The position numbers and the translations under genes were made by a program. DNA of 64,000 bases from Pseudomonas saudimassiliensis. Its GTDB lineage: Bacteria > Pseudomonadota > Gammaproteobacteria > Pseudomonadales > Pseudomonadaceae. Location of the stretch: the NCBI RefSeq assembly GCF_000939975.1, contig NZ_LK391969.1, positions 2,363,953 to 2,427,952 of the forward strand, written 5' to 3'. Below the pieces are notes generated by a model. The model made no database searches and was not told the origin of the DNA. It worked only from the letters and a program-made list of their open reading frames with translations. Positions 23,935-45,282 of this stretch are shown one piece after another. Within the stretch, counting starts at the first letter, position 1, and every line of letters begins with the position of its first letter.

Positions 23935-25347
23935 ATGCGCTGGGCCTGTATCCTGCTGACCCAGTTGGCGTTGGATGGCGTCATGCGCAGCCGGGCAGAT
24001 CCAACCGTGCCGCTGGTGCTGGCGACCGGCACCGTGCCGCGCCGAGTGATCCGCACGCTCAATCCAGCGGCCCGCGCGCTCGGGCTCAAGCCGGGGATGA
24101 CCCTGACCGCCGCCCAGGCGCTGGCCAGCGGCTTTGCGGTGGCGGATTATGACGAACAGCAGATTCTTCACTGGCAGGGCTTTCTGGCCGCCTGGGCCTA
24201 CCGCTATAGCTCCCACGTCAGCCTGGATTACCCCCGCGCGCTGTTGCTGGAGGTGGAATCCAGTTTCGGTCTGTTCGGCCCCTGGCCTGCCTTCGAGCAG
24301 CGGTTGCGTGATGAGCTGACTGCGCTGGGCTTCAGCCACCGTATCGTGCTGGCGCCCAACCCGGCAGCGGCCCGGGTGTTGACCAATATCCATGATGGCC
24401 TGGCGGTGGATCAGCACAACCTGCGTGAACAGGTGGAGCGCCTGCCCATCCAGCGCTGCGGGCTCGACCGCGAGAGCGCCGCCGCTTTGTCTCGCATGGG
24501 GTTGAAGCAGGTGCGGCAATTGTTGAGCCTGCCCCGGGATACCCTGGCCCGGCGCTTTCCCGCAGTAGTGCTGGAGCATCTCGACCGCTTGCTGGGCCTG
24601 CGACCGGTAGCCCTGGACTGTTATAAGCCGGCCGATGAATTCAGCGCCCGGATCGAATTCAATTTCGAGGTCGACTCCCACCAGGCGCTGCTGTTTCCGC
24701 TGCGCCGATTGCTGACCGACCTCAGCGCCTTTCTCGCCGGCCGGGACTGCAGCGTGCAGCGCTTCGAATTGACCCTCGAACATCGCCATCGCGAGCACAC
24801 CAGTTTGCCCATCGGCCTGTTGACCCCGGAGCGGGACGCGCAATTGTTGTTCGAGGTGGTCCGCAGCCGTCTGGAACAGGTGCAGCTGCCCGAGCCGGTG
24901 CTGGCCGTACGGCTGTTGGCCCGGGACCTACCGGCTTTTGCTCCGCAACCGGCTTCCCTGCTTGATGAACGCCCACAACAATCCCAACCCTGGGAGCAAC
25001 TGCGTGAGCGGCTGCGAGCCAGGTTGGGCGACCAGGCCATCCACGGTCTGCTGGCCGTGGCCGATCACCGACCGGAAGCCAGCTGGCGCCGGGAAGTGCA
25101 GGGTGGGGGGATACGGCCCGGGGTTCTCGGACCGCGCCCCGGCTGGCTGCTGGATGAGCCCCAACCCTTGAATGACCTGTTGCCGGAGATTATCGCCGGC
25201 CCCGAGCGTCTCGAGACTGGCTGGTGGGACGGCGCCGACCAGCGCCGGGACTACTATGTGGTGCGCACCCGGGACGGGCGCGTGGCCTGGGCCTGGCAAG
25301 CGGTGGACGGCAGCGGCCCCTTCATGCTGCAGGGCTGGTTCGCATGA
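23935..25347 (+). CDS. imuB: ImuB, inactive Y-family polymerase-like mutasome subunit
   Basis: A 470-residue Y-family DNA polymerase homologue. The segment aligning with the active-site strand ([13 protein letters not shown], residues 3-15) lacks the catalytic Asp residues of DinB/UmuC, and the second acidic motif is replaced by [13 protein letters not shown], as in ImuB. The family acts as a scaffold that binds the beta clamp, ImuA and DnaE2. QQSQPWEQL near residue 345 is a possible but degenerate clamp-binding stretch; this is a guess. Its stop overlaps dnaE2 by four bases. Confidence 0.92.
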
Positions 25348-28300: not shown

Positions 28301-28421
28301 GCTGCAAGTGCAGGGCAAGCTCGAACACAAGGAAGGAGTACGCCACCTGATCGCCAGCAGACTGACCGACCTCACGCCGATGCTGCAGGGGCTGGATACA
28401 CGGAGTCGGGATTTTCACTAA
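25344..28421 (+). CDS. dnaE2: Error-prone DNA polymerase DnaE2 (ImuC)
   Basis: A 1025-residue C-family polymerase. It has an N-terminal PHP domain ([20 protein letters not shown]), palm Asp residues in [11 protein letters not shown] (D370 and D372) and [12 protein letters not shown] (D521), a helix-hairpin-helix region and a C-terminal OB fold ([17 protein letters not shown]). It is shorter than replicative DnaE1 and lacks its C-terminal tau-binding region; the clustering with imuA and imuB confirms DnaE2. It performs SOS-induced translesion synthesis. Start ATG 25344 overlaps the imuB stop. Confidence 0.95.
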
Positions 28422-30354: not shown

Positions 30355-31221
30355 TTACATCGCCACCCCCCGCACATTCCCCTGCGCCTCCCGCGCCGTA
30401 TACCTGCACTTCTCATCCCTATCTACATACGCCACCGCAACATCCCGGTCATGGGTAAACACCAGTCGCCCATTACGCGCGACCAGCTCATTGAGCAGGG
30501 CTTCTTTTTCTCCGATCAGCATTTCGGGGAAGCGGTCGTAGCCCATGGTGATGGGCAGGTGCAGCCAGGGCGCGCCGGGGATAAGGTCGCCGGGGAAGAC
30601 GACGGGGCCGTCGGGCATGCTGAACTCCGGCAGCATCAGGCCGGGGGTGTGGCCGTCGCTGAAATGGAACTGCCAGTCCGTGCCCAGGGTTGGGGATGGC
30701 TGGCCGTCCTTGATCAGTTCCACCCGTCCGCTGGCGCTCAGTAGCTCTATCAGCTGGGGGATGAAGGAGGCTTGGTCCCTTGGGTGGGGGCGGCGGGCGC
30801 GGGCCCAGTGGCGTTCGCCGATGATGAAGGTGGCGTTGGGGAACAGCAGTTCCGGTTCCTTGCCTTCCTCCCAGGCGGTGAGCAGACCGCCGGCATGGTC
30901 GAAGTGCAGGTGGGTGAGGACCACCACGTCGATGTCGGTATGGCTGAAGCCGACCTCCTTCAGGCTGTCGAGCAGGACGTGATTGTCTTCGACCACGCCG
31001 TAGCGCTCTTTCATCTGCGGGGAGAAGAAGGCGCCGATGCCGGTCTCGATGAGGATGTTGCGGTCACTCTCCTGTACCAGCAGAGCCCGGCAGCTGAGGG
31101 CAATGCGGTTCTGGTCGTCGGTGTCGACCCAGCGGGACCACAGGGCCTTGGGGGCGTTGCCGAACATGGCGCCGCCGTCCAGTCGCTGACTGTTGCCTTC
31201 GAGGGTGGTGAAAGTACGCAT
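30355..31221 (-). CDS. MBL-fold metallo-hydrolase
   Basis: A 288-residue metallo-beta-lactamase-fold enzyme with the zinc motif HxHxDH in VVLTHLHFDHAGG, plus the later metal-ligand histidines and aspartate (DGHTPG, FPGDLIPG and FTHDRD). The layout resembles the N-acyl homoserine lactonase/glyoxalase-like subgroup, but the substrate cannot be assigned. It has no signal peptide, so it is cytoplasmic. It is the last gene of the minus-strand unit acyl-CoA synthetase-permease-porin-hydrolase, with 51 bases to the porin gene and a GGAGAAT ribosome-binding sequence, which suggests a hydrolytic step (for example a lactone or thioester) in the same pathway. Confidence 0.85.
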   Translation of the reverse strand: MRTFTTLEGNSQRLDGGAMFGNAPKALWSRWVDTDDQNRIALSCRALLVQESDRNILIETGIGAFFSPQMKERYGVVEDNHVLLDSLKEVGFSHTDIDVVVLTHLHFDHAGGLLTAWEEGKEPELLFPNATFIIGERHWARARRPHPRDQASFIPQLIELLSASGRVELIKDGQPSPTLGTDWQFHFSDGHTPGLMLPEFSMPDGPVVFPGDLIPGAPWLHLPITMGYDRFPEMLIGEKEALLNELVARNGRLVFTHDRDVAVAYVDRDEKCRYTAREAQGNVRGVAM

Positions 31222-31272
31222 GGGATTCTCCTTGGCCGGCCGCCAGTGCGGGGCTGGCGGCCGGGGGGCGTG

Positions 31273-32535
31273 TTACAGGTTGAAGGTGTAGCCGACAATC
31301 AGGCGGTTCTCGTCCATGTCGGTGGCGTAGTTGCTGCGGTAGGTCGCGTTGCGCCAGTGCAGGGACAGGTTCTTCAGCGCGCCGCTCTGGATCACATAGA
31401 TCAGATCGGTGTTGCGCTCCCATTCCTTGCCGCGGCCACCGGCATGCTCGATGTTGTGGCCGTGGGTGTAGCGGTTCATCAGCTTCAGTCCGGGCAGACC
31501 CAGATCGGCGAAGGAGTAGTCATGGCGAACCTGCCAGCTGCGCTCGTCGCGGTTGGCGAAGTCCTGGATCTGCACCAGGTGAGCGAGGTAAGGGTCGGTG
31601 CCGTTGATATAGGCAAAGCCGGTGTCGCCTTCCATGTGCTGGTAGCTGGTGCTGAAGCGGTGCATGCCGGCCTGGTAGCTCAGGCCCAGGCTGGTCATAC
31701 GGTTGTCGATATTGCTGCGTCCGGCGTCGGTGGAGTCGGCGTGGCGCAGGTTCAGGTTCAGGCGATCGCCGTTATCCAGCTGCCAGCTGTGGCCCAGGGT
31801 CAGGTAGTGCTGGCGGTAGATGTCCTCCAGTTCGCCGAAGTGCCAGCTTACTTTTGTCTGCTCGCTCGCCTGCCAGGTCAGACCGGCGAAGTCGAATGCG
31901 CTGGCCTCGACGCCCGCGGCGTTGAGCCGGATATTGCGCGCGCCGCCCATGACCGGGGTCATGCGCTCGTGGTTCGAGGAGTCGCGCAGGTTGATCCGGT
32001 CAAAGCGGCCAAGGTCCAGCTTGAGGGGCGCTGCCGGGTCGCTCTGCAGCCAGGCGCCGCGAAAGGTCTGCGGCAGCAGGCGGGTGTCGTTATGCATGGC
32101 CAGCGGCATGGACGGCAGCAGGGTGCCGATGCGCAGCACATGGTTGTCCAGCCGCAGGCGGGCGGTCAAGCCCAGCTCGCCGTACTCGTCCATGGCGCGG
32201 CCGTCGCTGGTGCTGCGCTTGAGAATGCCGGTGCCGTTGCGCTCGGGGCTGGAGTCCAGCTTGATGCCGAGCAGGCCGATGGCATCCATACCCAGGCCGA
32301 GGCGGCCGGGAGTATAGCCAGAGTGCCATTCGGCGCGCAGACCCTGGGCCCATTCGTCGGCCTTGCTCTGGGTAGCGGCCGAGTGGCGGAAGTCGCGGTT
32401 GAAGTACAGGTTGCGCAGGCTGAGGCTGGCGCTGCTGTCTTCGAAGAATTCGGCCTGGGCGGGCAGGATGCCGAGGCCGCCGCCGAGCAGGGCGGCAGCG
32501 ATGGCGATGTGTCTGGTCAGGTTGAGTCGGTTCAT
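31273..32535 (-). CDS. OprD-family outer-membrane porin
   Basis: A 420-residue precursor with a signal peptide (MNRLNLTRHIAIAAALLGGG ending at PAQA) and the OprD family start EFFEDSSASLSLRNLYFNRDF. The rest alternates like a beta barrel (18 strands in the family). It ends VGYTFNL, so the last residue is Leu, not the more common Phe. OprD/Opd porins of the OpdK branch take up carboxylates, which fits the adjacent acyl-CoA synthetase. The start overlaps the permease stop by four bases, showing tight co-expression of outer- and inner-membrane transporters. Confidence 0.92.
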   Translation of the reverse strand: MNRLNLTRHIAIAAALLGGGLGILPAQAEFFEDSSASLSLRNLYFNRDFRHSAATQSKADEWAQGLRAEWHSGYTPGRLGLGMDAIGLLGIKLDSSPERNGTGILKRSTSDGRAMDEYGELGLTARLRLDNHVLRIGTLLPSMPLAMHNDTRLLPQTFRGAWLQSDPAAPLKLDLGRFDRINLRDSSNHERMTPVMGGARNIRLNAAGVEASAFDFAGLTWQASEQTKVSWHFGELEDIYRQHYLTLGHSWQLDNGDRLNLNLRHADSTDAGRSNIDNRMTSLGLSYQAGMHRFSTSYQHMEGDTGFAYINGTDPYLAHLVQIQDFANRDERSWQVRHDYSFADLGLPGLKLMNRYTHGHNIEHAGGRGKEWERNTDLIYVIQSGALKNLSLHWRNATYRSNYATDMDENRLIVGYTFNL

Positions 32536-33908
32536 TGTGCGCCCTCCTGGCTGGTGGTTTTGACGTCGCTGACGCTGCGGAATTTCAGCAGGTGGGTACG
32601 TTCCACCAGGACGTACAAGACTGCGCCGGCGGCCAGCCCCCAGCCTGCGCCGTAGACCGCCAGGACCACGCCCATGGTGCCGGCGATGCCGCGCTCGGTG
32701 TTGTTCTGCAGCTGCTCGAAGCCCACCATGAGACAGATGTAGCCGGTGAGGATCAGGGTCAGCGACAGGGCAATCGGCAGTACTGGCTGGAAGAAACTCA
32801 CCAGCGGCAGCATGAACAGCGCCAGAAAGCCGCTGATCCAGAAGGTGCCGGCGCCGCTGTAAATGGAGTCCATCGCGTTGCGGCCGTACTTGTAGCGCTC
32901 GGCCATGGTGGCGGCGACTGCTGTCCACAACGGGCCGGCCAGCCCGGGGTAGGGCGCGAAGAAGGCATGCAAGGCGTTGCGGATGGCAGTGACCAGATGC
33001 ACACGGTCGATGTTGTTCTCGATCACCTCGTCGGTGCGCAGCTCATCGGCGCGCTGCATCAGCGACTGGCCGACGATGATGTCACCAAAGGCGATCACAT
33101 AGGCGATCACCGCGGTGGGCACCGCCAGCATGAATACCTCGGCGTCGGGGAAGCCGACGCTGAAGGGCAGGTAGTTCCACATCTCGCCGAAGGCCGGAGC
33201 CGTGATGCCGAACTGCACATCAGGCATGGCATATTCCCCGGTAGCAATGCCGACGAAGATGGCGATCAACATGCCCGGCACCATGCCGTAGTTGACGATC
33301 TTGCGCGCCAGTGGAAAGCGCTGGGTCAGGCCCTGGAAGGACACCGAGAACATCAGGTACAGGCAGATCAGGCTGCCCAGCACCAGTGAAATCGGCGTGT
33401 TGGCCAAGCGGCCGCCGGTATCGATCTCGCCGATCAGCGCGGCGATACCGGCGCCGATGATGATGCCGCCCTTCATCGAGTTGGGGATCAGCCGCACCAG
33501 CACCGATCCGAGCCGGGTGATGCCAAGCAGCAGGAAGATCACGAATACCAGAAACTGCAGGGCGAACAGCGCCTGGATAGCCTCCGGCCCCGGCTCGAAG
33601 TTACCCAGAAACAGCAACACCACCGGAATACCCGGGGTGATCCAGCCGGGTACGAAGGGCACGCCCAGCAGCGCCGGCAGCATGAAGCCGACGCCGCACA
33701 CCACCACATAGGCCAGAGCGACCTCGTAGGGCAGGCCAAGGGTGCTCTGCAGCAGGGGAATCATGCCCAGGCTGACCACGAACATGATCAACGCCTGGAG
33801 CATTTCTGCGGTTTCCCAGCGGTAGTGGACGAAGGGCAGGCGGATCTTGAAGGGGCCGCAAGGCCAATGAGGCTGCTCTGCGCCATGGGCGCGCTTGTAG
33901 ACTTGCAT
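32532..33908 (-). CDS. NCS2-like (xanthine/uracil permease family) inner-membrane transporter
   Basis: A 458-residue polytopic protein with about 12-14 hydrophobic segments. The order of glycine-rich membrane segments (MKGGIIIGAGIAALIGEID and TAVIAYVIAFGDIIVGQS) resembles the nucleobase-ascorbate/uracil permease superfamily, but it lacks clear nucleobase signature motifs and its substrate is unknown. It is coupled to the OprD-type porin (four-base overlap) and lies 164 bases downstream of the acyl-CoA synthetase gene. From context the substrate is more likely a carboxylic acid than a nucleobase; this is inference. Confidence 0.8.
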   Translation of the reverse strand: MQVYKRAHGAEQPHWPCGPFKIRLPFVHYRWETAEMLQALIMFVVSLGMIPLLQSTLGLPYEVALAYVVVCGVGFMLPALLGVPFVPGWITPGIPVVLLFLGNFEPGPEAIQALFALQFLVFVIFLLLGITRLGSVLVRLIPNSMKGGIIIGAGIAALIGEIDTGGRLANTPISLVLGSLICLYLMFSVSFQGLTQRFPLARKIVNYGMVPGMLIAIFVGIATGEYAMPDVQFGITAPAFGEMWNYLPFSVGFPDAEVFMLAVPTAVIAYVIAFGDIIVGQSLMQRADELRTDEVIENNIDRVHLVTAIRNALHAFFAPYPGLAGPLWTAVAATMAERYKYGRNAMDSIYSGAGTFWISGFLALFMLPLVSFFQPVLPIALSLTLILTGYICLMVGFEQLQNNTERGIAGTMGVVLAVYGAGWGLAAGAVLYVLVERTHLLKFRSVSDVKTTSQEGAQ

Positions 33909-34072
33909 GTAAACACTCCTCTGGCCGAACGCCGGGTGCAGGGCAGGAGCGCCCCGCCTGACGGTCGTCGGCTTATTGTTGTTGTGGAACAGGAAATGTT
34001 GCCGCGGTCCGGCGATCCGGCGCCGTCGGCGGCCCCGCAGGGGTGGCTGCGGGGCATCAGGGGGTCAGCGGA

Positions 34073-35701
34073 TCAGCAGGCCTCGCGCTGGCAGGCCCAT
34101 TCACGCAGAACGTATTTCTGGATCTTGCCGGTGGAGGTCTTCGGCAGGTCGACGAAGACCACATCCTTGGGAACCTTGAACCCGGCCAGATGCTCGCGGC
34201 AGAAGCGCATGATGTCCTGTTCGCTTACCCGCTGGCCGGCCTTGAGGGTGATGAAGGCGCAAGGAGTCTCGCCCCATTTGTCATCCGGTTTGGCGACCAC
34301 CGCAGCCTCCAGCACCGCCGGGTGCCGGTAGAGCACGCCCTCGACCTCGATGGTGGAGATGTTCTCGCCACCGGAAATGATGATGTCCTTGAGGCGGTCC
34401 TTGATCTGCACGTAGCCGTCCTCATGCCACACGCCCAGGTCGCCGGTATGGAACCAGCCACCTTCGAAGGCTTCGGCGGTGGCGCTCGGGTTCTTCAGGT
34501 AGCCCTTCATCACGGTGTTGCCGCGCATGAAGATCTCGCCGATGGTCTGACCGTCCTTGGGTACCGGTTGCAGGGTCTTGGGATCGGCAACCATGACCCC
34601 TTCCAGGGTCGCATAGCGCACACCCTGGCGGGATTTGATATCCGCGCGCTGCTCCAGCGGCAGCTCATCCCACTTGCCATGCCAGGCGCAGACAGTTACC
34701 GGACCGTAGGTCTCGGTCAGGCCGTAGACGTGCGCGACCTTGATGCCCATTTCTTCCACCGCGCCGATTACCTTGGCCGGCGGTGCTGCGCCCGCGACCA
34801 TGGCGTGCACCGGATGGTCGATGGCGGCCTTGGCTTCCGGCGGCATGTTGACCAGGGCATTGAGCACGATGGGCGCGCCGCACATGTGGGTTACCTGCTC
34901 GTCGTGGATCAGGTTGAGGATTTTCTGCGGATCGACCCGGCGCAGGAACACGTGCACGCCGGCCATGGCGGTCACTGTCCAGGGGTAGCACCAGCCGTTG
35001 CAGTGGAACATCGGCAGGGTCCACAGGTAGACCGGATGCTGGCCCATGTTCCAGGTCATCTGGTTGCCCAGGGCGTTAAGGAAGGCGCCGCGGTGGTGGT
35101 AGACCACACCCTTGGGATTGCCGGTGGTACCGGAAGTGTAGTTGAGGCTGATGGCGTCCCACTCGTCACCAGGCAGTTGCCAGACGAACTCGGGATCGCC
35201 CTCAGCGAGGAAGGCTTCGTAGTCCAGCGGGCTGGTCGCTTGACCTTCACCATACTCGGGATCGTTGACGTCGATCACCAGCGGCGGGTGATCGAGCATG
35301 CCGATGGCCGCGTGCACAATGTCATGGAATTCGCGGTCGGCAATCAGCACCTTGGCCTCGCCATGCTGCAGCATGAAGGCGATGGCTTCGGCGTCCAGGC
35401 GTACGTTCAGGGTGTTGAGGACCGCACCGATCATTGGCACGCCGAAGTGGGCTTCGAGCATTTCCGGGATGTTTGGCAGGATGACGGCTACTGTGTCGCC
35501 CTTGCCGATACCACGGTTCGCCAGAGCAGAGGCTAGACGGCGGCAGCGAGTATAGGTCTCCGACCAGGTGCGGCGTACAGCACCGTGCACCACAGCGGGG
35601 TAATCGGGATAGACACTGGCTGTGCGCTCGATAAAGGTCAGCGGAGACAGGGCAGTGTGGTTCACGGCGGTGGCCGACAGGCCTTCCTCGAAGATGGACA
35701 T
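34073..35701 (-). CDS. Acyl-CoA synthetase (AMP-forming), DmdB-like
   Basis: A 542-residue ANL-superfamily enzyme that activates a carboxylic acid through an acyl-AMP. The P-loop-like motif is YTSGTTGNPKG, followed by VYGLTETYGP, FHTGDLGVW, the hinge region IKDRLKDIIISGGENIS, and the C-terminal catalytic Lys in PKTSTGKIQKYVL. The whole sequence resembles medium-chain and 3-methylmercaptopropionate (DmdB-type) ligases. It heads a minus-strand unit with a permease, a porin and a hydrolase, and is divergent from a two-component system. The true acid is not known. Confidence 0.88.
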   Translation of the reverse strand: MSIFEEGLSATAVNHTALSPLTFIERTASVYPDYPAVVHGAVRRTWSETYTRCRRLASALANRGIGKGDTVAVILPNIPEMLEAHFGVPMIGAVLNTLNVRLDAEAIAFMLQHGEAKVLIADREFHDIVHAAIGMLDHPPLVIDVNDPEYGEGQATSPLDYEAFLAEGDPEFVWQLPGDEWDAISLNYTSGTTGNPKGVVYHHRGAFLNALGNQMTWNMGQHPVYLWTLPMFHCNGWCYPWTVTAMAGVHVFLRRVDPQKILNLIHDEQVTHMCGAPIVLNALVNMPPEAKAAIDHPVHAMVAGAAPPAKVIGAVEEMGIKVAHVYGLTETYGPVTVCAWHGKWDELPLEQRADIKSRQGVRYATLEGVMVADPKTLQPVPKDGQTIGEIFMRGNTVMKGYLKNPSATAEAFEGGWFHTGDLGVWHEDGYVQIKDRLKDIIISGGENISTIEVEGVLYRHPAVLEAAVVAKPDDKWGETPCAFITLKAGQRVSEQDIMRFCREHLAGFKVPKDVVFVDLPKTSTGKIQKYVLREWACQREAC

Positions 35702-35744
35702 GGCTCGTATCCTGTATGGCGTTTTATTAGCTCTTGTTTGGAAA

Positions 35745-35769
35745 GAATGCGACTATCTTTAACGCATTC
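35745..35769. promoter_or_regulatory. Inverted repeat, candidate operator 1
   Basis: Perfect 7-bp arms GAATGCG (35745-35751) and CGCATTC (35763-35769) with an 11-base AT-rich spacer. The position, 44 bases upstream of the acyl-CoA synthetase ATG, fits a regulator site for that gene. The FixJ-type regulator encoded next door is the natural candidate to bind it. Confidence 0.55.
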
Positions 35770-35779
35770 CCCGTATTCG

Positions 35780-35802
35780 TGGATCAAGTTATAGGTGATC
35801 CA
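35780..35802. promoter_or_regulatory. Inverted repeat, candidate operator 2
   Basis: Perfect 7-bp arms TGGATCA (35780-35786) and TGATCCA (35796-35802) with a nine-base spacer. Its sequence differs from the neighbouring repeat at 35745-35769, which suggests a second protein or a different binding mode. Confidence 0.55.
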
Positions 35803-35859
35803 TGTAAGGATTGGAAGTATTACCAAAGTCATATAGTGCTTTTACTATAAGGTAGCCGG

Positions 35860-37332
35860 GTGCCGTCCAAGAACAAGACCGAACCAGCGCTACGCTGGCT
35901 TTTGCCGAGCGCCGATCCCCAGCCGGCGGTGGTGTTTGACGCCGCCGGACGGCTCTGCGACTGGAATCCGGCGCTGCATGCCTGGCTCCAGGCCGGCACC
36001 GCGCCGGATGAGCTGCTGCCGCAGAACTGGGCGCATCTGGTCACGGCGGTGCTCACGCAGCAGCGGGCCATTGAGGATGTGCCGGTCGCAACGCCCGACG
36101 AGCGGCAGTTGCTCTGGACCTTCTTCCCGTTGGGCGAGGGTCATGTGCTGGGTCGCGCCCGGGATGCCACCGACATGCTGCAGACCTATCAGCAGGCGCA
36201 GGTCGCCCGCCGCCTGTACCGGGTGATCATTGAGAACACCACTGACCTGATCTCCCGGCACACCCCGGAGGGCGAATTCCTTGACGCCTCGCCCGCCGCC
36301 TGGGCACTGCTGGGCTACTGGCCCGAGCAGCTGCGTGGCACCCGGATTCAGCAGCTGATCCACCCCCAGCAGCGTGACGAGCTGATGCAGCGCTATGCCA
36401 GGGCGCTGGAGCAGGACGGCTACCTCACCGTGAGCTACCAGATCCAGCACCGGGACGGGCATTATCTCTGGTTCGAGACCGCCAGCCGGGCGACCCGGGA
36501 TACCTACTCCGGCAATGTGGTCGAGGTGGTCAGCGTCTCCCGGGATATCACCGAACGGGTACGCAGCGAAGAGCGGACCCGTCGGCTGCAGGACGAGCTG
36601 ACCCATGCCACGCGACTGGCCGCCCTGGGCGAGCTGGCGTCGGGCATTGCCCATGAGATCAACCAACCCCTGGCAGCCATCGTCAACTATGCCAGCGCCA
36701 GTCAGCGCTACCTGGCGGCAATGCCAGCGCAGGGTGATACCGGGCAGCGCCTGGCCCAGGGGCTGGCGCGCATCACCGATCACGCCCAGCATGCTGCAGA
36801 AGTGATCAGGCGCATGCGTGCCTTCCTGCGCAAGGGGCCGCGCAATGCCCAACGCGTGAGTCCGGCGCAGCTGGCACAGGACGCGGTGAGCCTGTGCGCC
36901 TGGGAGGCCCGGCAACAGGAGGTCGAGATCATCCAGCAGATTCCGCCGGACCTGCCGGATGTGCACGCCGATCCGGTACTGGTCCAGCAGGTGTTGCTCA
37001 ACCTGCTGCGCAATGCCATCGAGGCCAACCGCGAGACCCATCCGGATGCCCCTTCGCAGGTGGTCCTGCAACTGAGCACCGAGCAGCGCCAGGTGCACCT
37101 CAGGGTCATCGACCAGGGCCCCGGCGCCAGCGCGGAACAGTTGACCCATCTTTTCACCCCCTTCTTCACCAGCAAGGCGGACGGGCTCGGCTTGGGCCTT
37201 TCCATGAGCCAGGGCATCATCGACAGTTTTGACGGTGGGCTGGAAGCCTACCCGGCGGTCGAAGGCGGGCTGTGCCTACATGGTTGGCTGCCTGCCCTGG
37301 TGGATAGACAAGAACAATCAACGGAGACGTAG
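35860..37332 (+). CDS. PAS-domain sensor histidine kinase
   Basis: A 490-residue kinase without obvious membrane segments, so probably soluble. An N-terminal PAS-like region (about residues 15-100) is followed by a clearer PAS/PAC domain (about 119-235, ENTTDLISRHTPEGEF), a HisKA domain with the phospho-acceptor H265 in GIAHEINQPLAAIVNY, and an HATPase domain with an N box (LLNLLRNAIEAN), a G1 box (VIDQGPG) and a G2 box (GLGLGLSMS). The HEINQPL motif is typical of FixL/DctB-type kinases. The start is a GTG at 35860. It is four bases upstream of the FixJ-type regulator, its likely partner. Confidence 0.92.
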   Translation: MPSKNKTEPALRWLLPSADPQPAVVFDAAGRLCDWNPALHAWLQAGTAPDELLPQNWAHLVTAVLTQQRAIEDVPVATPDERQLLWTFFPLGEGHVLGRARDATDMLQTYQQAQVARRLYRVIIENTTDLISRHTPEGEFLDASPAAWALLGYWPEQLRGTRIQQLIHPQQRDELMQRYARALEQDGYLTVSYQIQHRDGHYLWFETASRATRDTYSGNVVEVVSVSRDITERVRSEERTRRLQDELTHATRLAALGELASGIAHEINQPLAAIVNYASASQRYLAAMPAQGDTGQRLAQGLARITDHAQHAAEVIRRMRAFLRKGPRNAQRVSPAQLAQDAVSLCAWEARQQEVEIIQQIPPDLPDVHADPVLVQQVLLNLLRNAIEANRETHPDAPSQVVLQLSTEQRQVHLRVIDQGPGASAEQLTHLFTPFFTSKADGLGLGLSMSQGIIDSFDGGLEAYPAVEGGLCLHGWLPALVDRQEQSTET

Positions 37333-37335
37333 AAC

Positions 37336-37974
37336 ATGGACATGCATCAGCAGCAGGTATATGTGGTGGACGACGACCAAGGCATGCTCGACTCCACCCT
37401 GTGGCTGCTGGAATCGGTCGGCCTGCGCGCCGTCCCCTTCGCCTCGGGCCAGGCCTTTCTGGATAGCTACAACGAAGACCTTCCCGCCTGCGTCCTGCTG
37501 GATATCCGCATGCCCGGCATGGGCGGCCTCGCGGTGCAGGATGCGCTGCGCGAACGGGGCAGCCAGCTCCCCGTTATCTTTGTCAGCGCCCACGCCGATG
37601 TGCCCATCGTGGTGCGCGCCTTCCGCGGGGGCGCTGTCGACTTCATCGAGAAACCCTACAACGAACAGCTGCTGCTCGACAGCGTGCAGCGCGCGTTGCG
37701 CATGAACTCACGCCCCATCGCCAGTGGCCCCCAGGCGGTGGACATCCGCAACCGCCTGGCCCAGCTGACCCCACGGGAGCGGGACGTGCTGCTGCCGCTG
37801 GTGCAGGGTTACAGCAACCGGGAAATCGCCGAGCAGCTGGGGATCAGCGTCAAGACCGTGGACCTGTACCGCTCGCGGGTAATGAAGCGCATGCAGGCCG
37901 ATAGCCTGCCGGCGTTGGTGGGCATGGCGATAGGAACGGGGTTGGTGGCGCCTTTCGGTTTGCAGGCGTTGTGA
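37336..37974 (+). CDS. FixJ-family two-component response regulator
   Basis: A 212-residue regulator: a receiver domain (about residues 7-120) with acidic pocket VVDDDQ and phospho-acceptor D56 in LLDIRMPGMGG, then a LuxR/FixJ-type helix-turn-helix (about 140-200) with LTPRERDVLLPLVQGYSNRE and KTVDLYRSRVMKRM. It starts three bases after the kinase gene. By position it probably controls the divergent acyl-CoA synthetase unit; this is inference. It is not clearly any named regulator. Confidence 0.92.
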   Translation: MDMHQQQVYVVDDDQGMLDSTLWLLESVGLRAVPFASGQAFLDSYNEDLPACVLLDIRMPGMGGLAVQDALRERGSQLPVIFVSAHADVPIVVRAFRGGAVDFIEKPYNEQLLLDSVQRALRMNSRPIASGPQAVDIRNRLAQLTPRERDVLLPLVQGYSNREIAEQLGISVKTVDLYRSRVMKRMQADSLPALVGMAIGTGLVAPFGLQAL

Positions 37975-38024
37975 TGGACTGGTCGGATCGCTTATCGCGT
38001 CCGGCCCGGAAAGAGGAAGATGTC

Positions 38025-38702
38025 ATGGTCGTTGCATTGCCCCGTTTATATTCCTTCCGCCGTTGCCCGTACGCCATGCGGGCTCGGCTCGGCATCCTGT
38101 TTGCCGGTATGCAGGTGGAGCTGCGCGAGGTGGTACTGAAGAACAAGCCGCCGCAGCTGCTCGCCATCAGTCCCAAGGGCACTGTTCCGGTGCTGGAATG
38201 GGCGGCAGGTGAAAGCTCAAGCGGGCGGGTCATCGAGGAAAGCAGGGAGATAGTCGACTGGGCGCTGCGGCAGAATGATCCGCAAGGTCTGCTGCAGACC
38301 GATCTCGCACGCGCTGGCGCCCTGATCGATCAGAACGACAGTGAATTCAAGCACTGGCTGGATCGCTACAAGTACGCGGACCGCTACCCTGAATTGCCCC
38401 AGTCGGAATACCTGCAGCGCGGCGAACGCTTTCTGCAGGTGCTGGAAGCCTTGCTTGGTGCCAACGACTATCTGCTGGGTGACCGGGTAAGCGTCGCGGA
38501 TATTGGCGTGATGCCCTTTGTCCGCCAGTTTGCCCATGTGGACCAGGAGGTGTTCCACAGCCTGCCGTACCCGAATCTGCAACGCTGGCTGAGGAACTGG
38601 CTGGCCCATCCGTTATTTGTGAGCGCCATGGTCAAGCTTCCACCCTGGCAGGCGGGTGATGTACCAGTGCTGTTTCCCGAGGTTCGCCCTGGGATGGAGT
38701 GA
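38025..38702 (+). CDS. Glutathione S-transferase-like protein
   Basis: A 225-residue protein with an N-terminal thioredoxin-like domain carrying the CPYA motif (YSFRRCPYAMRARLGILFAG), seen in omega/Grx2-type glutathione transferases, the GTVPVLEW cis-proline loop, and a C-terminal helical domain (DRVSVADIGVMPFVRQFAH). ATG 38025 is chosen because AAGAGGA lies seven bases before it; an in-frame upstream start at 37971 overlaps the regulator stop. It may be co-transcribed with the two-component genes, but a functional link is not proven. Confidence 0.85.
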   Translation: MVVALPRLYSFRRCPYAMRARLGILFAGMQVELREVVLKNKPPQLLAISPKGTVPVLEWAAGESSSGRVIEESREIVDWALRQNDPQGLLQTDLARAGALIDQNDSEFKHWLDRYKYADRYPELPQSEYLQRGERFLQVLEALLGANDYLLGDRVSVADIGVMPFVRQFAHVDQEVFHSLPYPNLQRWLRNWLAHPLFVSAMVKLPPWQAGDVPVLFPEVRPGME

Positions 38703-38749: not shown

Positions 38750-39901
38750 TTAGAGCGGGTAGTTCTTCAACTCCCGGGCAATCAGCAGACGCTGGATTTC
38801 GCTGGTGCCTTCATAGATCTGGGTGATGCGGGCATCGCGGTATAGCCGCTCGACGGGGTAGTCTTCAAGATAGCCGTAGCCGCCGTGAATCTGCACGGCC
38901 TTGGAGCACACCTCTTCGGCCATTTCACTGGCGAACAGCTTGGCCTGGGAGGCTTCCGACAGGCAGGGGATACCTTCGGTGCGCAGGCGCGCCGCGTGCA
39001 GAATCAACAGGCGTGCCGCGTTGAGGCGGGTGTGCATGTCGGCCAACATGTTGGCAACGCTCTGGTGCTCGGTGAGCGGCACGCCAAACTGGGTGCGTTC
39101 ACGGGCGTAGGTCAGGGCGGCTTCAAAGGCCGACCGAGCGATGCCCAGCGCCTGGGCGGCAATGCCGATGCGGCCGCCTTCCAGGTTGGACAGGGCAATC
39201 GCCAGACCCTTGCCGCGCGGGCCAAGCAGATTGGCCTCGGGGATGCGGCAGTTGTCCAGGGTCACGGCGCAGGTGTCCGAACCGCGGATACCCATCTTGT
39301 GTTCCATACGCTCGATCTTGAAACCGGGGTTGTCAGTGGGCACCAGGAAGGCTGATAAGCCTTTCTTGCCCAGCTCCGGATCGGTAACGGCAAACACGAT
39401 AGCCAGATGCGCGCGTTTGGCGTTGCTGACGAATTGTTTGGCGCCGTTGATGACCCACTCGCCATTGTCCAGCACCGCCCGGGTGCGCAGGTTATGGGCC
39501 TCGGAGCCCGCCTGGGGTTCGGTCAGGGCAAAGCAGCCGATCTTTCTGCCGGCAGCCAGATCCGGCAGCCAGGTTTGCTGCTGCTCAGGGGTGCCATATT
39601 TGAGCAGCGGGCCACAGCCCACCGAGTTGTGAATGCTCATCATGGCTCCGGTGGCGCTGCAGCCGGCGGCGATTTCTTCCACGGCCAGGGCATAGGCGAT
39701 GTAGTCAACATAGCTGCCGCCCCATTCCTCGGGGACGACCATGCCCAGCAGGCCCAGCTCACCCATCTGGCTTACCACAGCGTCGTCGATCCAGCCGGAC
39801 TTGTCCCATTCGGCAGCGCGGGGGGCTAGTTCGCTCTGGGCAAACTGGCGGGCCATGTCGCGGATCATGCGCTGGTCTTCATTAAGCTCGATGTCATGCA
39901 T
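38750..39901 (-). CDS. Acyl-CoA dehydrogenase, probably isobutyryl-CoA dehydrogenase
   Basis: A 383-residue FAD enzyme of the acyl-CoA dehydrogenase family. The signatures [15 protein letters not shown] and [20 protein letters not shown] are present, and the C-terminal segment contains [17 protein letters not shown] with the catalytic Glu typical of short-chain acyl-CoA dehydrogenases. Clustering with 3-hydroxyisobutyryl-CoA hydrolase and mmsB points to isobutyryl-CoA oxidation in valine catabolism; a 2-methylbutyryl-CoA role is possible. It lies 13 bases after the hydrolase gene. Confidence 0.9.
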
Positions 39902-39914
39902 CTATCTGTCTCCC

Positions 39915-40979
39915 TCAAGCCTGGCCCGGTTGGAAGTCGGCGAAGAACGCTGCCACCCGGGCGGGGCTGACGTCGTCCAGCGTAGGCGGATTCCACCGGG
40001 GGTTCTTGTCCTTGTCGACGATGAGTGCGCGTACGCCTTCCATGATGTCGCCCTCGGCGAACCACTGGGCATCCAGGTGCAGTTCCAGTGCAAAGCAGTC
40101 GGGCAGGCTCAGTTCGCGCCCCTGGCGCAGCAGCTCCAGGGTGACGTTCATGGCCAACGGCGATTTGCTGTCGATGGCCGCCAGGGTACGTTCGGCCCAG
40201 TCCTGGTAGGCGGGGCATTCCTCAGCGGCCAGCGAGGCGCGGATGCGCGGCATGTCTGGCTGGCTGAAGTGGTGATCGATGGCCGAGCGCATGGCCTTGA
40301 TCTCCGAGCCCGGAATCTTCTGCGAGGCGCGCTTGTGCAGCAGCGCGTCCAGGTCGCTGGCAGGTTCGTCGGACCATTGCATGCTATCGAGCGCCTGATC
40401 CAGCTCGCCAACGAGGTCGCTGCCGAGGCAGTGATCGGCCAGCCCGCAATAGAGGGCATCGGCTGCGCGGATATGGGTGCCGGTGATGCCCAGGTACTGG
40501 CCGATGGCGCCGTCCAGGCGGGACAGGAAGTAGCTGCCGCCGACATCCGGGAAGTAGCCGATGCCGGTTTCCGGCATGCCCATCTTTACCCCCTCGGTGA
40601 TCACCCGATGCGATGCCGCCTGGGCCAGGCCCATGCCGCCGCCCAGCACGAAGCCGTCCATCAGGGCGACAACCGGCTTGGGGTAGTCATGGATCAACTG
40701 ATCCAGCGCGTACTCCTCGCGGAAGAAGGTCATGTACATGCCATCGCCGGCCAGGTAGCTGTCATACAGCCCGCGGATATCGCCACCGGCGCAGAAGGCT
40801 TTCTCGCCATTGGCGCGCAGCACCACGACGCGCACCTGATCATCGTTCAGCCAGGCGTCCAGCTGCTGGCGCAGCTGGCGGACCATGTCCAGGTTCAGGG
40901 CGTTGAGGCCGGCAGGGCGGTTGAGTGTCAGGTGGCCGACGCGGTTGCGCACCTCCACCAGTACGGTCTGCTCGGTCAT
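39915..40979 (-). CDS. 3-hydroxyisobutyryl-CoA hydrolase
   Basis: A 354-residue crotonase-superfamily protein, longer than enoyl-CoA hydratases, with the HIBCH-type region GMPETGIGYFPDVGGSYFLS and the oxyanion-hole segment VLGGGMGLAQAASHRV. It releases free 3-hydroxyisobutyrate from its CoA ester, which mmsB next oxidises. The ATG overlaps the mmsB stop by four bases, so the two steps are co-expressed. The C-terminal half with NPRWNPPTLDDV also matches the family. Confidence 0.92.
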   Translation of the reverse strand: MTEQTVLVEVRNRVGHLTLNRPAGLNALNLDMVRQLRQQLDAWLNDDQVRVVVLRANGEKAFCAGGDIRGLYDSYLAGDGMYMTFFREEYALDQLIHDYPKPVVALMDGFVLGGGMGLAQAASHRVITEGVKMGMPETGIGYFPDVGGSYFLSRLDGAIGQYLGITGTHIRAADALYCGLADHCLGSDLVGELDQALDSMQWSDEPASDLDALLHKRASQKIPGSEIKAMRSAIDHHFSQPDMPRIRASLAAEECPAYQDWAERTLAAIDSKSPLAMNVTLELLRQGRELSLPDCFALELHLDAQWFAEGDIMEGVRALIVDKDKNPRWNPPTLDDVSPARVAAFFADFQPGQA

Positions 40980-41869
40980 TCTATGGCTCCGTTGTACAGC
41001 TTGATGATGGCAGAGAAGTCCAGCGCGCCATTACCCTGGCTGCTGAAGGTCTGGTACAGCTGCTGGGCCAGACCGCCGAGGATCACCGGTTGCCGCGATT
41101 GCCTGGCTGCTTCGGTGGCCAGCCCCAGGTCCTTGAGCATCAGGTCGGTACCGAAACCGCCGGTGTAGCCGCGGGAAGCCGGTACGTTGTCCATGACGCC
41201 AGGATAGGGGTTATAGGTGTCCGAGCTCCAGTTGCGGCCGCTGGAGGTGTTGATTATGCCGGCCAGGACCGCGGGGTCCATGCCCAGGGACACGCCCAGG
41301 TTCATCGCCTCGGCGGTGCCGATCATGGTGATGGCCAGCAGCATATTGTTGGCGACCTTGGCGACCTGGCCATTGCCGGTGGGGCCACAGTGAACGATGT
41401 TTTTGCCCATGGCCTGGAGTATTGGCAGGGCCGTGTCGAAGTCCGCCTTGTCGCCGCCGACCATGAAGGTCAGGGTGCCGGCAGCGGCGCCGCCGGTACC
41501 GCCGGAAACCGGGGCATCAATCATGCGGTTACCCTGTTTCCCAGCAGCAGTAGCTACCTCGCGGGCACTCATGGGGTCGATGGTAGAGCTGTCGATCAGG
41601 CGCACGTGCGCAGCCACATGGGCCAGCAGGCCGTTCTCACCCAGGTAGACGCCCTTCACGTGGGGCGCTGCCGGCAGCATGGTTATGATCAGCTCGACGT
41701 CGCTGCGGGCCAGTTCCGCGATGCTGGCGGCGGCAGTAGCACCGGCCTCGACCAGACCGGCGACGGCGCTTTGCGAGAGGTCGGATACGGTGAGCTGGTG
41801 GCCTGCCTTGATCAGGTTACGGGCCATCGGCCCACCCATGTTACCCAGTCCTATAAAGCCAATTTTCAT
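40976..41869 (-). CDS. mmsB: 3-hydroxyisobutyrate dehydrogenase
   Basis: A 297-residue beta-hydroxyacid dehydrogenase with N-terminal Rossmann motif FIGLGNMGGPMARNLIKAGH, substrate motif DAPVSGGTGGAAAGTL, and catalytic Lys in GNGQVAKVANNMLLA. It oxidises 3-hydroxyisobutyrate to methylmalonate semialdehyde with NAD, feeding mmsA. It sits between the enoyl-CoA hydratase gene and the hydrolase gene. Confidence 0.94.
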   Translation of the reverse strand: MKIGFIGLGNMGGPMARNLIKAGHQLTVSDLSQSAVAGLVEAGATAAASIAELARSDVELIITMLPAAPHVKGVYLGENGLLAHVAAHVRLIDSSTIDPMSAREVATAAGKQGNRMIDAPVSGGTGGAAAGTLTFMVGGDKADFDTALPILQAMGKNIVHCGPTGNGQVAKVANNMLLAITMIGTAEAMNLGVSLGMDPAVLAGIINTSSGRNWSSDTYNPYPGVMDNVPASRGYTGGFGTDLMLKDLGLATEAARQSRQPVILGGLAQQLYQTFSSQGNGALDFSAIIKLYNGAIE

Positions 41870-41925
41870 GTGGTTGCCTCATTATTGTTGTCAGGCGGTT
41901 GGGCGTGCTGCGCACGCTCGCTCAC

Positions 41926-42699
41926 TCAGCCGTGCTTGAAGTTGGGTTTACGCTTCTCGACAAAAGCCTGCATGCCTTCGGTCTGGTCGGCGGTGGCGAA
42001 GATGGAGTGGAACACGCGACGCTCGAAGCGCACGCCTTCGGCCAGGCTGGTTTCGAACACGCGGTTCACGCATTCCTTGGTCATCATCACGCTGGGCAGG
42101 GATTTTTCCGCAATGACCTGGGCGGCCTTCAGGGTCTCGTCCAGCAACTGATCCACCGGGAAGATCCGCGCAACCAGACCGGCCTGCTCGGCTTCCTGGG
42201 CGTCCATCTGGCGACCGGTCAGGCACATCTCCATGGCCTTGGCCTTGCCGATGGCGCGGGTCAGGCGCTGGGTACCACCGATACCGGGCAGTACGCCCAG
42301 GTTGATCTCCGGCTGGCCGAAGCGGGCGTTGTCCGCGGCATAGATAAAGTCGCAGATCATCGCCAGCTCGCAGCCACCGCCCAGGGCATAACCGGCCACC
42401 GCGGCGATCAGCGGCTTGCGGCGGTTGGCGATGCGGTCGGCGGGGGAGAAGAAGTCGTCCATGAACACGCCGGGGTACTGCAGATCGACCATCTGCTTGA
42501 TGTCGGCACCGGCAGCAAAGGCCTTGCTGGAGCCGGTCAGCACCACGCAGCCGATATTCGGGTCATTCTCGAACTGGTCCAGCGCCTGGTTCAGCTCGTC
42601 CAGGACCTGGGTGTTCAGGGCGTTCAACGCCTGGGGGCGGTTCAGGGTAATCAGGCCGACGCGCTCACGGGTCTCGATCAGGAGGGTTTCAAAACTCAT
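41926..42699 (-). CDS. Enoyl-CoA hydratase
   Basis: A 257-residue crotonase-family hydratase. Both catalytic Glu regions are seen: [17 protein letters not shown] and [17 protein letters not shown]. In this cluster it most likely hydrates methacrylyl-CoA to 3-hydroxyisobutyryl-CoA; general short-chain enoyl-CoA hydration cannot be excluded. A terminator-like hairpin separates it from mmsA upstream. Confidence 0.93.
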
Positions 42700-42710
42700 G
42701 TCACTACTCC

Positions 42711-42744
42711 AACAAAAAGAGGCCGGCCTTTACGGAGCCGGCCT
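42711..42744 (-). terminator. Intrinsic terminator between mmsA and enoyl-CoA hydratase genes
   Basis: Arms GGCCGGC (42721-42727) and GCCGGCC (42737-42743) with a nine-base loop. On minus the stem is followed by TCTTTTTGTT (complement of 42711-42720), a good intrinsic terminator directly after mmsA. It implies that mmsA is expressed above the downstream genes or that they have another promoter. Confidence 0.78.
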
Positions 42745-42752
42745 TTCGGGCA

Positions 42753-44261
42753 TTACTTCAGGGTGATGGTCGTGTTCACGGCAGCGGCCTGCTCGTCGTC
42801 ATCGAACCAGCGCGCGGTGATGGTCTTGGTCTGGGTGTAGAACAGGATCACCTGCTTGCCGTACGGACCCAGGTCGCCCAGCTTGGAGCCGCGCGAGCCG
42901 CTGAAGGAGAACAGCGGGACCGGTACCGGAATCGGCACGTTGATGCCGACCTGACCCACGTCGATGTCTTCCTGGAAGCGGCGGGCGATGCCACCGGAAC
43001 GGGTGAAGATGGCGGTGCCGTTACCGTTCGGGTTGGCGTTGATGATCTCGATCGCCTCGTCCAGGGAGTCGGCTTCCATCACGCAGAGTACCGGCCCGAA
43101 GATTTCGGTGTCGTACACGCTCATGCCCGGCTTGACGCCCGCCAGGATGGTCGGGCCGACGAAGTTGCCATCGGCGTAGCCGGGGACCTCGGGGCTGCGA
43201 CCATCCAGCACCAGCTCGGCGCCTTCATCGATACCCTGCTGGATCAGATCGTTGATGCGCTCCAGCGCGGAGCGGGAGATGACCGGGCCGACATCGGTAC
43301 CCGGCTCGACGCCGGCGCTGACCTTGAGGCCCTGGGCCTTGCGCGCCAGTTCCGGCAGCCAGTTGCGCGACTCGCCCACCAGGATGATTACCGGCAGGGC
43401 CATGCAGCGCTGACCGGCCGCACCGAAGGCGGCTCCCACCAGGTTATTGAGGGTCTGCTCCTTGTTGGCGTCGGGCATGACGATGGCGTGGTTCTTCGCG
43501 CCCATCATGCACTGTACGCGCTTGCCGGCCTGGCTGGCGCGGTTGTAGACGTGGGTGCCGACATGGGTGGAGCCGACGAAGGAAACGGCTTTGATGTCCG
43601 GGTGGTCGCAGACCGCATTCACCGCGTCCACGCCGCCGTGGATCACGTTCAGTACGCCCGGCGGGATGCCGGCTTCCAGCGCCAGTTCGGCCAGGCGCAT
43701 GGTGACCATGGGGTCCTGTTCGGAGGGCTTGAGTACGAAGGTGTTACCGGTGGCGATGGCCATGGGGAACATCCACAGCGGGATCATCGCCGGGAAGTTG
43801 AACGGGGTGATACCGGCGCAGACGCCCAGCGGCTGCAGCAGGGTGTAGGTGTCGACACCACCGGCCACGTTGTTGGCCAGCTCGCCCAGTTGCAGGTTGC
43901 CCACGGCGGAGGCGTGTTCGACCACTTCCAGACCACGGAATACATCGCCTTCGGCATCGGCCAGGGTCTTGCCCTGCTCGGCGGTGAGGATGGCGGCTAG
44001 CTCCTTCATGTTCTCGCGGATCAGCTGCTGATACTTGAGGAAAATGCGGGCGCGGGCACCGATCGGCGTCTTGCGCCAGGTCTTGAAGGCTTCCTTGGCG
44101 TTGGCCACGGCGGCGTTGATTTCGTCCTGGGTGGCGAAGGGTACACGGGCCAGGACTTCCTGGGTGGCCGGGTTGACCACGTCGCGCCATTGATCGGTCT
44201 TCGATTCAACGAACTCGCCGTTGATCAGCAACTTGACGGTAGGAATATTGTTATTGCTCAT
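42753..44261 (-). CDS. mmsA: Methylmalonate-semialdehyde dehydrogenase (CoA-acylating)
   Basis: A 502-residue aldehyde dehydrogenase that converts methylmalonate semialdehyde to propionyl-CoA in valine catabolism. The catalytic Cys lies in [13 protein letters not shown], a CoA-acylating MMSDH hallmark, and the fold motifs [16 protein letters not shown] and [13 protein letters not shown] are present. The start at 44261 ([20 protein letters not shown]) was chosen by homology; in-frame sequence further upstream overlaps the divergent LysR gene. It is the first gene of the minus-strand valine cluster. Confidence 0.95.
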
Positions 44262-44385
44262 TGGTGCCCTCTGGGCCGTGGCCCTTGTCGTCTGGAAAGA
44301 TGTCATGGATAGTAGCAGTGCGTTTTTCCCATAAACAATTGGCTCATTCGCAAGTTGGGTCTGCGTTTTTGCACAGGGAGAGGAA
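44262..44385. promoter_or_regulatory. Divergent mmsA/LysR-gene control region with direct repeats
   Basis: This 124-base gap holds two copies of TGCGTTTTT (44319-44327 and 44362-44370), 43 bases apart, about four helical turns. They are candidate regulator contacts, though they do not form a classical LysR T-N11-A box on their own. Confidence 0.4.
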
Positions 44386-45282
44386 ATGGATTGGGACAAC
44401 CTGCGGTTTTTCCTGGAGTTGAGCCGGGCAGGGCGACTGACCACGGCGGCCCGGCGACTTGGGGTTGACCACACCACGGTTTCCCGGCGGCTGCAGGCCT
44501 TGGAGAAAAGCCTGGGCGTCGCATTGTTCCTGCGCGATACCAGCGGCTACACCCTGACCGAGGCCGGGCGCAGCCTCCTGCCGCAGGTGGAGTTGATGGA
44601 AGGAGCCAGCGTGCGCATCGAGCAGGCGCTGCCCAGCCCGGGGGATAGCCTCTCCGGCCAGGTGCGCATCGGTGCCACCGAGGGCTACGGCACCATGTTG
44701 GTGGCGGGGCAGCTCAGTGAACTCAGTCACCGCCATCCGCATTTGCACCTTGACCTGCTGGCGCTGCCCCGCGCAGTGCGCCTGTCCCGTCATGAGGCAG
44801 ACATTGTCATTACCCTGGAGCGCCCCGAGCGCGGCCCCTTTATCATCACCAAACTCACCGACTATGTGCTGCGCCTCTATGCGGGCAAGGATTACCTGCA
44901 GCAGCATGGTCCAATCAACAGCCGCAGTGATCTGGAGAAACACCGCTTCGTCAGTTACGTGGACGACCTGGTGTTCAGCAAGGACCTGCTGTTCCTCGAC
45001 GAGATTGCCGGCTCCGGCGCGGTCGGGGTGCGTAGTACCAGCGTGCTGGCGCAACAGGAGGCGATTGCTGCTGGCGCCGGCTTGGGTATCCTGCCGGCAT
45101 TTACTGCCGACCAAGACTCGCGGTTGAGCCTGATCATGCCGGCCCAGATCCGCTTTATCCGCACTTTCTGGATGTTGATGCCGATTGAATTGAAGGATAT
45201 TGCGCGGATGCGGGTGACCTGGGATTTTCTCCGCGAACAGGCGGAGCGGGAGCGGGGGCGATTGATGGGGTCGGTTGGTTAG
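44386..45282 (+). CDS. LysR-family transcriptional regulator
   Basis: A 298-residue LysR-type regulator: N-terminal winged helix-turn-helix (about residues 1-60, [20 protein letters not shown]) and a C-terminal effector-binding domain. The sequence [20 protein letters not shown] is the D-N-L-R-F-F-L-E subtype. It is divergent from mmsA with 124 bases between, so it probably regulates the valine cluster. In P. aeruginosa the mms operon is instead governed by the AraC-type MmsR; which regulator acts here is inference. Confidence 0.9.

Follow-up and report, generated by a model that had tools for sequence, protein, structure and literature searches.

The blcABC/attKLM genes constitute the gamma-butyrolactone–4-hydroxybutyrate operon, and a lactonase, an alcohol dehydrogenase and a succinate-semialdehyde dehydrogenase (SSADH) are parts of that pathway. 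PurT, which bears this name in the Protein Data Bank (PDB) (entry 7TAK) and comes from Colwellia psychrerythraea, is a permease of the NCS2/NAT fold that is reportedly an H+-coupled purine transporter. In the acetate module CrbS/R (MxtR/ErdR)–acs–actP, a sensor kinase and its LuxR-type regulator act through an inverted repeat on the genes for an acyl-CoA synthetase and a monocarboxylate permease (PMC5715377). In this study, we analysed a 64,000-nt stretch of the 3.34-Mb genome of Pseudomonas saudimassiliensis (contig NZ_LK391969.1, positions 2,363,953 to 2,427,952; hereafter the window). The permease encoded there is 97% identical to that of the close relative Halopseudomonas pertucinogena and 96% identical to that of H. 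formosensis, which is likewise close. The window contains a PAS kinase gene and a FixJ-like regulator gene that are divergent from an acyl-CoA synthetase (ligase) gene and an NCS2-type permease gene, with a palindrome between the two operons. Together they probably form a module, under local control, for the uptake and CoA activation of a short-chain (about C4–C8) monocarboxylic acid, a reading in which we place reasonable, not high, confidence.

The module resembles CrbS/R (MxtR/ErdR)–acs–actP in having a LuxR-type switch over an acyl-CoA synthetase and a permease, and in its palindrome. There are, however, several differences. CrbS has an SLC5 transporter domain, whereas the window kinase has no clear membrane segment (highest 19-residue hydropathy 0.96) and is probably cytosolic; the window regulator reaches only 48 bits against the ErdR cut-off of 390; the ACTU repeat differs in sequence from the window palindrome; and the permease there is the acetate permease ActP, whereas here it is an NCS2 member in a divergent layout with one exact genomic site. 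By analogy, the module would work like CrbS/R–acs–actP without being a member of that system. The FixJ and FixL models of NCBIfam are not reached either (205 bits against a cut-off of 255 and 183 against 850, respectively).

The four genes were found to stay together. A permease-only scan of genome contigs gave 173 relatives, and the analysis used the 80 best-scoring ones together with their flanks; 77 of these loci have at least 1.7 kb upstream, 72 at least 5.5 kb upstream and 69 at least 5 kb downstream, and the counts below refer to the loci testable in the respective direction. The ligase gene lies directly upstream of the permease gene on the same strand in 77 out of 77 loci, and the ligase with the divergent kinase and regulator is present in 72 out of 72. 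The hosts include Pseudomonas, Halopseudomonas, Stutzerimonas, Denitrificimonas, Marinobacter, Alcanivorax, Zobellella, Photobacterium and Vibrio. Outside the core the flanks turn over: when 13 selected representatives are compared in 156 ordered pairs, 136 pairs share no flank gene, and none of the 20 pairs that do reaches 40% identity over 100 residues. Core retention in every testable locus, set against this turnover, demonstrates linkage beyond chance, and the conserved unit is the four genes.

The remaining genes are less constant. Downstream of the permease, 48 of the 69 loci carry a metallo-beta-lactamase-fold (MBL) hydrolase gene, 34 a long acyl-CoA dehydrogenase gene (FadE), 22 a thiolase gene and 11 a porin gene; the porin and the long dehydrogenase were not seen together, and 19 loci lack all three of MBL, long dehydrogenase and porin. 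Within the genus, 22 genomes have the permease at 85% identity or more; 18 besides that of the window were compared, most of them also among the 80, and all 18 have the permease, ligase, kinase, regulator and MBL genes, with the porin in 13 and the glutathione S-transferase (GST)-like gene in one. The only GST match among the 80 loci is in that same genome. Two further queries for the genus loci, gA and gB, are probably antisense frames of a large open reading frame at 25224–28421 and were left out. The preliminary description had proposed uptake and CoA activation under a local two-component switch as a self-contained set of seven genes. This proposal is supported for the four-gene core but not for the larger set, which was rejected as a unit, since the porin (11/69) and the GST-like gene (1/80) are lineage-specific rather than stable members. 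In Marinobacter (L108–L123), many loci carry genes for a PF10118 metal-hydrolase, a DegV-family protein and an RhtB-type exporter after the permease, replacing FadE and MBL.

The coordinates are collected in Table 1. All seven reading frames, their strands and the four-base overlap of the permease stop with the porin start (ATGA, 32532–32535) are as first described, and Pfam backs every family assignment (OprD, Xan_ur_permease with a gathering cut-off of 27 bits, AMP-binding and Lactamase_B on one side, and PAS/HisKA/HATPase, Response_reg plus GerE and GST on the other). The gene order and, as set out below, the labels of the ligase and the channel had to be corrected. Transcription on the minus strand runs from the ligase through the permease and the porin to the MBL gene.

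Table 1. Features of the locus, by position in the window
Feature	Coordinates	Strand	Evidence
Acyl-CoA synthetase (PRK08162 type), operon gene 1, core	34073..35701	-	best NCBIfam model NF006020 (PRK08162), 1001 bits, cut-off 677
NCS2/NAT-fold permease, PurT clade A, core	32532..33908	-	PF00860 33.2 bits; PDB 7TAK 651.6 bits, E 6e-195
OprD/OccK-type outer-membrane channel, accessory	31273..32535	-	PF03573 468.8 bits (OprD family); nearest solved 3t24, 474 bits
MBL-fold hydrolase, lactonase-like, frequent partner	30355..31221	-	PF00753 75.6 bits; HLHFDH motif
Palindrome TATAGT-N6-ACTATA, proposed response-regulator operator	35832..35849	.	divergent promoter region
PAS histidine kinase, probably cytosolic, core	35860..37332	+	Pfam PAS_3, HisKA, HATPase_c
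Response regulator, receiver + LuxR/GerE output (FixJ-like), core	37336..37974	+	Pfam Response_reg + GerE
GST-like gene, neighbour outside conserved unit	37971..38702	+	Pfam GST
Distal-valine/isobutyryl-CoA genes, possible downstream pathway	38750..44477	-	NCBIfam, solved-structure matches

The association of permease and ligase is not confined to this arrangement. Class- and phylum-wide searches were made with PurT as the query. In G746, a permease that is 88% identical to PurT, so that the host is probably a Colwellia relative, is directly followed by a ligase that is 62% identical to that of the window; genes for a hybrid kinase with a dCache_2 domain and for a regulator of the OmpR type come next. 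In G736, a HAMP kinase, a sigma-54 regulator and a periplasmic binding protein precede the permease–ligase pair. The adjacency is thus also found in the opposite gene order and with different regulator pairs. On a plasmid of Halomonas sp. KO116 (L236, 8012–15618), an acyl-CoA dehydrogenase, the permease (72%), the ligase (69%), a 3-hydroxybutyryl-CoA dehydrogenase (PRK05808, 414 bits, cut-off 408), an enoyl-CoA hydratase (best with a short-chain model, 312 bits, below its cut-off of 394) and a GST-family gene lie on one strand; no thiolase gene was seen in that stretch. A mobilizable plasmid of Stutzerimonas has the core 1.2 kb from bktB–fadB–acyl-CoA dehydrogenase genes, with an AraC gene between.

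An alignment of 35 permeases separated three main groups, A (with the window permease), B and C, whose signatures differ after a shared FGD motif and in a later RN...GP segment. PurT bears the clade A signature: it is identical to the window permease at 291 of 443 aligned residues (66%), and the segments around the FGD and PGLAGPLWTA motifs are kept between the two. Clade C includes the second copy in the genome of the window (G000:C1:405156-406442, L159; 38% identical to the window permease), which presumably lies near htpG, as do related copies in L163 and L164, judging by protein starts. The NAT signature motif, [QEP]NxGx4T[RKG], occurs neither in the window permease or PurT nor in the stronger-scoring NCS2 members of the genome and is therefore not discriminating. 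Predicted structure models had a mean pLDDT of 55.7 for the ligase and 66.1 for the permease, which is too low for use.

Clade B, whose permease is 41% identical to that of the window and occurs in Alpha- and Gammaproteobacteria, has a different set of neighbours. An Agrobacterium plasmid (L238, 3511–9362) carries an AttM lactonase (481 bits, cut-off 390), an iron alcohol dehydrogenase, an IclR regulator, SSADH (706 bits, cut-off 646) and the permease in succession; a Thioclava plasmid (L237, 5207–9359) carries IclR, SSADH (712 bits), the iron alcohol dehydrogenase and the permease; and G615 carries SSADH (715 bits), the iron alcohol dehydrogenase and the permease. On both plasmids the permease is labelled as a hypothetical protein. 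In L152 and L154, it adjoins iron alcohol dehydrogenase and aldehyde dehydrogenase genes by Pfam, and the aldehyde dehydrogenase of L152 (6421–10499) passes the succinate-semialdehyde model (715 against 646 bits). An iron-alcohol-dehydrogenase-like gene lies beside the clade B permease in L155 and a zinc alcohol dehydrogenase gene in L153 (by Pfam), L156 and L157 (by protein start), while L161 showed no alcohol dehydrogenase neighbour by eye, its neighbours not being assigned by family. A pathway for a C4 carboxylate thus adjoins the sister clade, and clade A belongs to operons with a CoA ligase. The likeness to blcABC/attKLM accordingly lies in the clade B permease beside such genes and in an MBL lactonase-type gene, which both have; the window module differs in that the blc/att type has no CoA ligase and has IclR in place of the two-component system, and in that the window MBL protein aligns to AttM over 116 residues at 31% identity. 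A Fusobacteria plasmid (L239, 1652–9407) has genes for a glycyl radical enzyme, its activator and an iron alcohol dehydrogenase, and then a permease nearest to clade B (55% identical to that of L152).

The carboxylate reading is strengthened by the palindrome, by the FadE, thiolase and beta-oxidation partners and by the occurrence of clade B near 4-hydroxybutyrate-type genes. The foremost alternative is that the permease genuinely imports purines and that its linkage to the ligase operon has regulatory or historical reasons, the acid entering in some other way. The preliminary description had inferred a carboxylate substrate from context, with nucleobase transport as the finding that would undo it, and this objection stands in part because the nearest characterised relative, PurT, is reportedly a purine transporter. 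A set of observations weighs against the carboxylate reading. The closest characterised permease carries the PDB name PurT and shares the identity and motifs given above; a NupC nucleoside transporter gene lies 5.5 kb off in L149 (Pfam), a NupC-like gene 5 kb off in L152 (by protein start), and a second purA (adenylosuccinate synthetase) gene about 1.1 kb downstream of the permease in the Vibrionaceae loci L101 and L103; and neither L150 nor L151, with permeases 60–61% identical to PurT, has a ligase within 19.5 kb. As the loci are related, the 77 ligase linkages are not independent events. The permease is dispensable, since 14 of the 25 genomes of g295, another genus of the family, keep the regulator, kinase and ligase without it in the fetched stretch. 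The iron alcohol dehydrogenases of clade B reach at best 239 bits against the 500 of the 4-hydroxybutyrate dehydrogenase model, and the Halomonas operon dehydrogenase has a mixed set (Met/Ala/Gln) at the selectivity positions discussed below. The permease substrate is hence the weakest step, where the reported purine activity of PurT faces a consistent carboxylate context.

We nevertheless consider a purine importer unlikely. The ligase is linked in 77 out of 77 loci, in both gene orders and with three different regulator pairs; the relative that is 88% identical to PurT itself adjoins an acyl-CoA synthetase gene; the gene tables of the two plasmid neighbourhoods of clade A, which are incomplete, show no purine gene; and of the three NCS2 members of the genome, the window permease has the weakest PF00860 score. 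Kennelly and Prindle (PMC11633122) assigned substrates to 10 of the 13 P. aeruginosa NCS1/NCS2 members. Among the papers listed, titles and abstract openings showed no link between PurT-type permeases and acyl-CoA synthetases, which is no proof of absence. Next to the second adenylosuccinate synthetase gene of L101 and L103 stands a LysR-type gene (about 12200–13700).

The dehydrogenases of the sister operons point to the chain length of the acid. The long dehydrogenase matches FadE2 of P. aeruginosa best (8png, 955 bits), ahead of FadE1 (8pns, 649 bits) and DmdC (6ijc, 560 bits); 8png was taken as FadE2 because its length fits and 8r1e differs at three FadE2 positions mutated in PMC11890623. 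That paper describes FadE2 as acting on medium chains only, with Glu296 (Ala in FadE1) as a determinant. Fifty sister-locus dehydrogenases were read, 40 from named loci and 10 from g295, one partial sequence (L183) being left out; Glu296 is kept in all 50, whereas the position of Met130 is Ala in 39 and Thr in 11. The window operon itself has no FadE-type long dehydrogenase gene.

Next to the module, the window encodes an acyl-CoA dehydrogenase, 3-hydroxyisobutyryl-CoA hydrolase, 3-hydroxyisobutyrate dehydrogenase, enoyl-CoA hydratase and methylmalonate-semialdehyde dehydrogenase, the last four of which exceed NCBIfam cut-offs (PRK05617, 431 bits; HIBADH, 432; PRK05862, 439; MMSDH, 748). This raises the possibility that the acid is specifically branched, namely isobutyrate, feeding the adjoining 3-hydroxyisobutyryl-CoA pathway, and homologues of the hydrolase (12 of 18) and of the acyl-CoA dehydrogenase (8 of 18) recur at the genus loci, on either side of the module. 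Outside the genus the picture is different: the hydrolase at 55% identity or more is found in 9 of the 80 loci, all of this genus, and other genera carry the FadE2-like dehydrogenase and thiolase, which suit straight chains. The window acyl-CoA dehydrogenase, which exceeds no NCBIfam cut-off, matches 4n5f and 4m9a best among solved structures (596 bits; substrate not stated) and scores higher with SCAD (388 bits) than with ACAD8 (261 bits). A substrate restricted to isobutyrate is therefore doubtful. The common denominator would be a short-chain acid, straight or branched, with isobutyrate for Halopseudomonas and butyrate for the Halomonas operon as the best single guesses.

The divergent region between ligase and kinase contains the palindrome TATAGTGCTTTTACTATA (35832–35849), 131 bp from the ligase start codon. 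A distance of 10 bp separates its end from the GTG annotated as the start of the kinase gene, which suggests that the true start lies further downstream or that the site may also act on the kinase gene. In 76 intergenic regions, that is, the window and the 75 of the 80 loci with a placeable ligase start, the arms TATAG-N8-CTATA are exact in 51 and present with at most one mismatch in 69, against a mean of 0.7 and at most three regions in 20 rounds of mononucleotide shuffling; as the motif was noticed in the same regions, the figure of 69 out of 76 is no fresh test of the operator proposal. The genus-genome scan and the g295 loci are fresher tests, the former with the reservation that the genus genomes overlap with the 76 regions. 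The full 12-base palindrome has a single exact copy in its own genome, at the module; in 37 genus genomes, all nine exact copies are at the module, one per genome, and of the 22 genomes with the permease, 19 carry the palindrome at the module with no more than one mismatch. Copies with a single mismatch away from the module number 28 in the 37 genomes, against 165 for a reversed control (4 against 3 in the own genome), so no further targets are claimed.

The palindrome is also present, with at most two mismatches, in 14 out of 14 g295 loci that have the regulator, kinase and ligase but no permease in the fetched stretch. L148 has an exact copy, L147 has none, and in L149 the palindrome occurs only at a distance from the module; the regulator differs in L147 and L149. 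Being present without the permease and missing where the regulator differs, the palindrome tracks the regulator and not the permease. We propose on these sequence grounds that it is the operator of the response regulator. A divergent pair of -10 boxes is an improbable alternative: TATAGT does resemble a -10 hexamer, and a sigma-70 scan detected no consensus promoter in the divergent region, but the site has one exact copy in each of nine genomes, always at the module, follows the regulator and lies at least 131 bp from the ligase start codon. That the module belongs to a 3-methylthiopropionate pathway of the DmdB–DmdC type is highly improbable as judged by the dehydrogenase and the ligase, no search for a DmdD-type hydratase having been made, for although the sister-operon dehydrogenase matches DmdC (6ijc), its score with FadE2 is far higher, and the ligase, first described as of the DmdB type, reaches only 327 bits with the 3-(methylthio)propionyl-CoA ligase model NF005426 (cut-off 822).

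BfiSR was also considered as a relative of the switch, consisting as it does of a PAS kinase and a response regulator; it is PA4196–4197, adjacent in number to the synthetase PA4198. However, 10 of the 11 g295 genomes without the ligase give only regulator matches of 37–43% identity, P. aeruginosa itself not being distinguished among these genomes. One of these matches presumably lies near an hmgA-like gene, judging by the protein start. This comparison thus lends no support to a link with BfiSR. The locus tag of FadD5 is PA2893, not PA4198.

As for the accessory genes, the porin had been likened to the vanillate channel OpdK, but it scores only 272 bits with OpdK against 425 with 4frt, 399 with OpdH and 353 with OpdO, all below its nearest solved match. 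The MBL protein keeps the Lactamase_B domain and the HxHxDH motif, and reaches neither the YtnP model (162 bits, cut-off 425) nor the AttM model (24.5 bits, cut-off 390).

Computation establishes which genes make up the set, how they are linked, and that the palindrome exists and accompanies the regulator; the substrate and the direction in which it is carried, the signal to the kinase, and DNA binding and activation by the regulator are inferred. In the proposed mechanism, the acid would pass the outer membrane, for which Halopseudomonas has the OccK-type channel, and be carried over the inner membrane by the PurT-clade permease, and the PRK08162 ligase would convert it to an acyl-CoA for beta-oxidation or, beside the window module, for the isobutyryl-CoA route. 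Hydrolysis of a lactone or an ester by the MBL protein may supply the acid. The PAS kinase would sense the acid, its CoA ester or another product inside the cell, and the phosphorylated regulator would bind the palindrome between the operons and activate the ligase–permease operon.

We tentatively extend this proposal, as possible rather than probable, to the whole PurT-type branch of NCS2/NAT, including the crystallised Colwellia PurT: its members may be short-chain carboxylate importers in cells, clade A taking acids that are activated to CoA esters (butyrate-, isobutyrate- or hexanoate-like) and clade B 4-hydroxybutyrate, with purines as surrogate or secondary ligands. If this is true, a carboxylate branch exists within the uracil-permease fold, a structurally solved transporter clade bears the wrong physiological label, and database entries named solute carrier family 23 protein or hypothetical protein would be importers of short-chain fatty acids or 4-hydroxybutyrate. 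The module would then also represent a compact kinase–regulator–operator switch with a single exact genomic site, which would be useful as an acid sensor.

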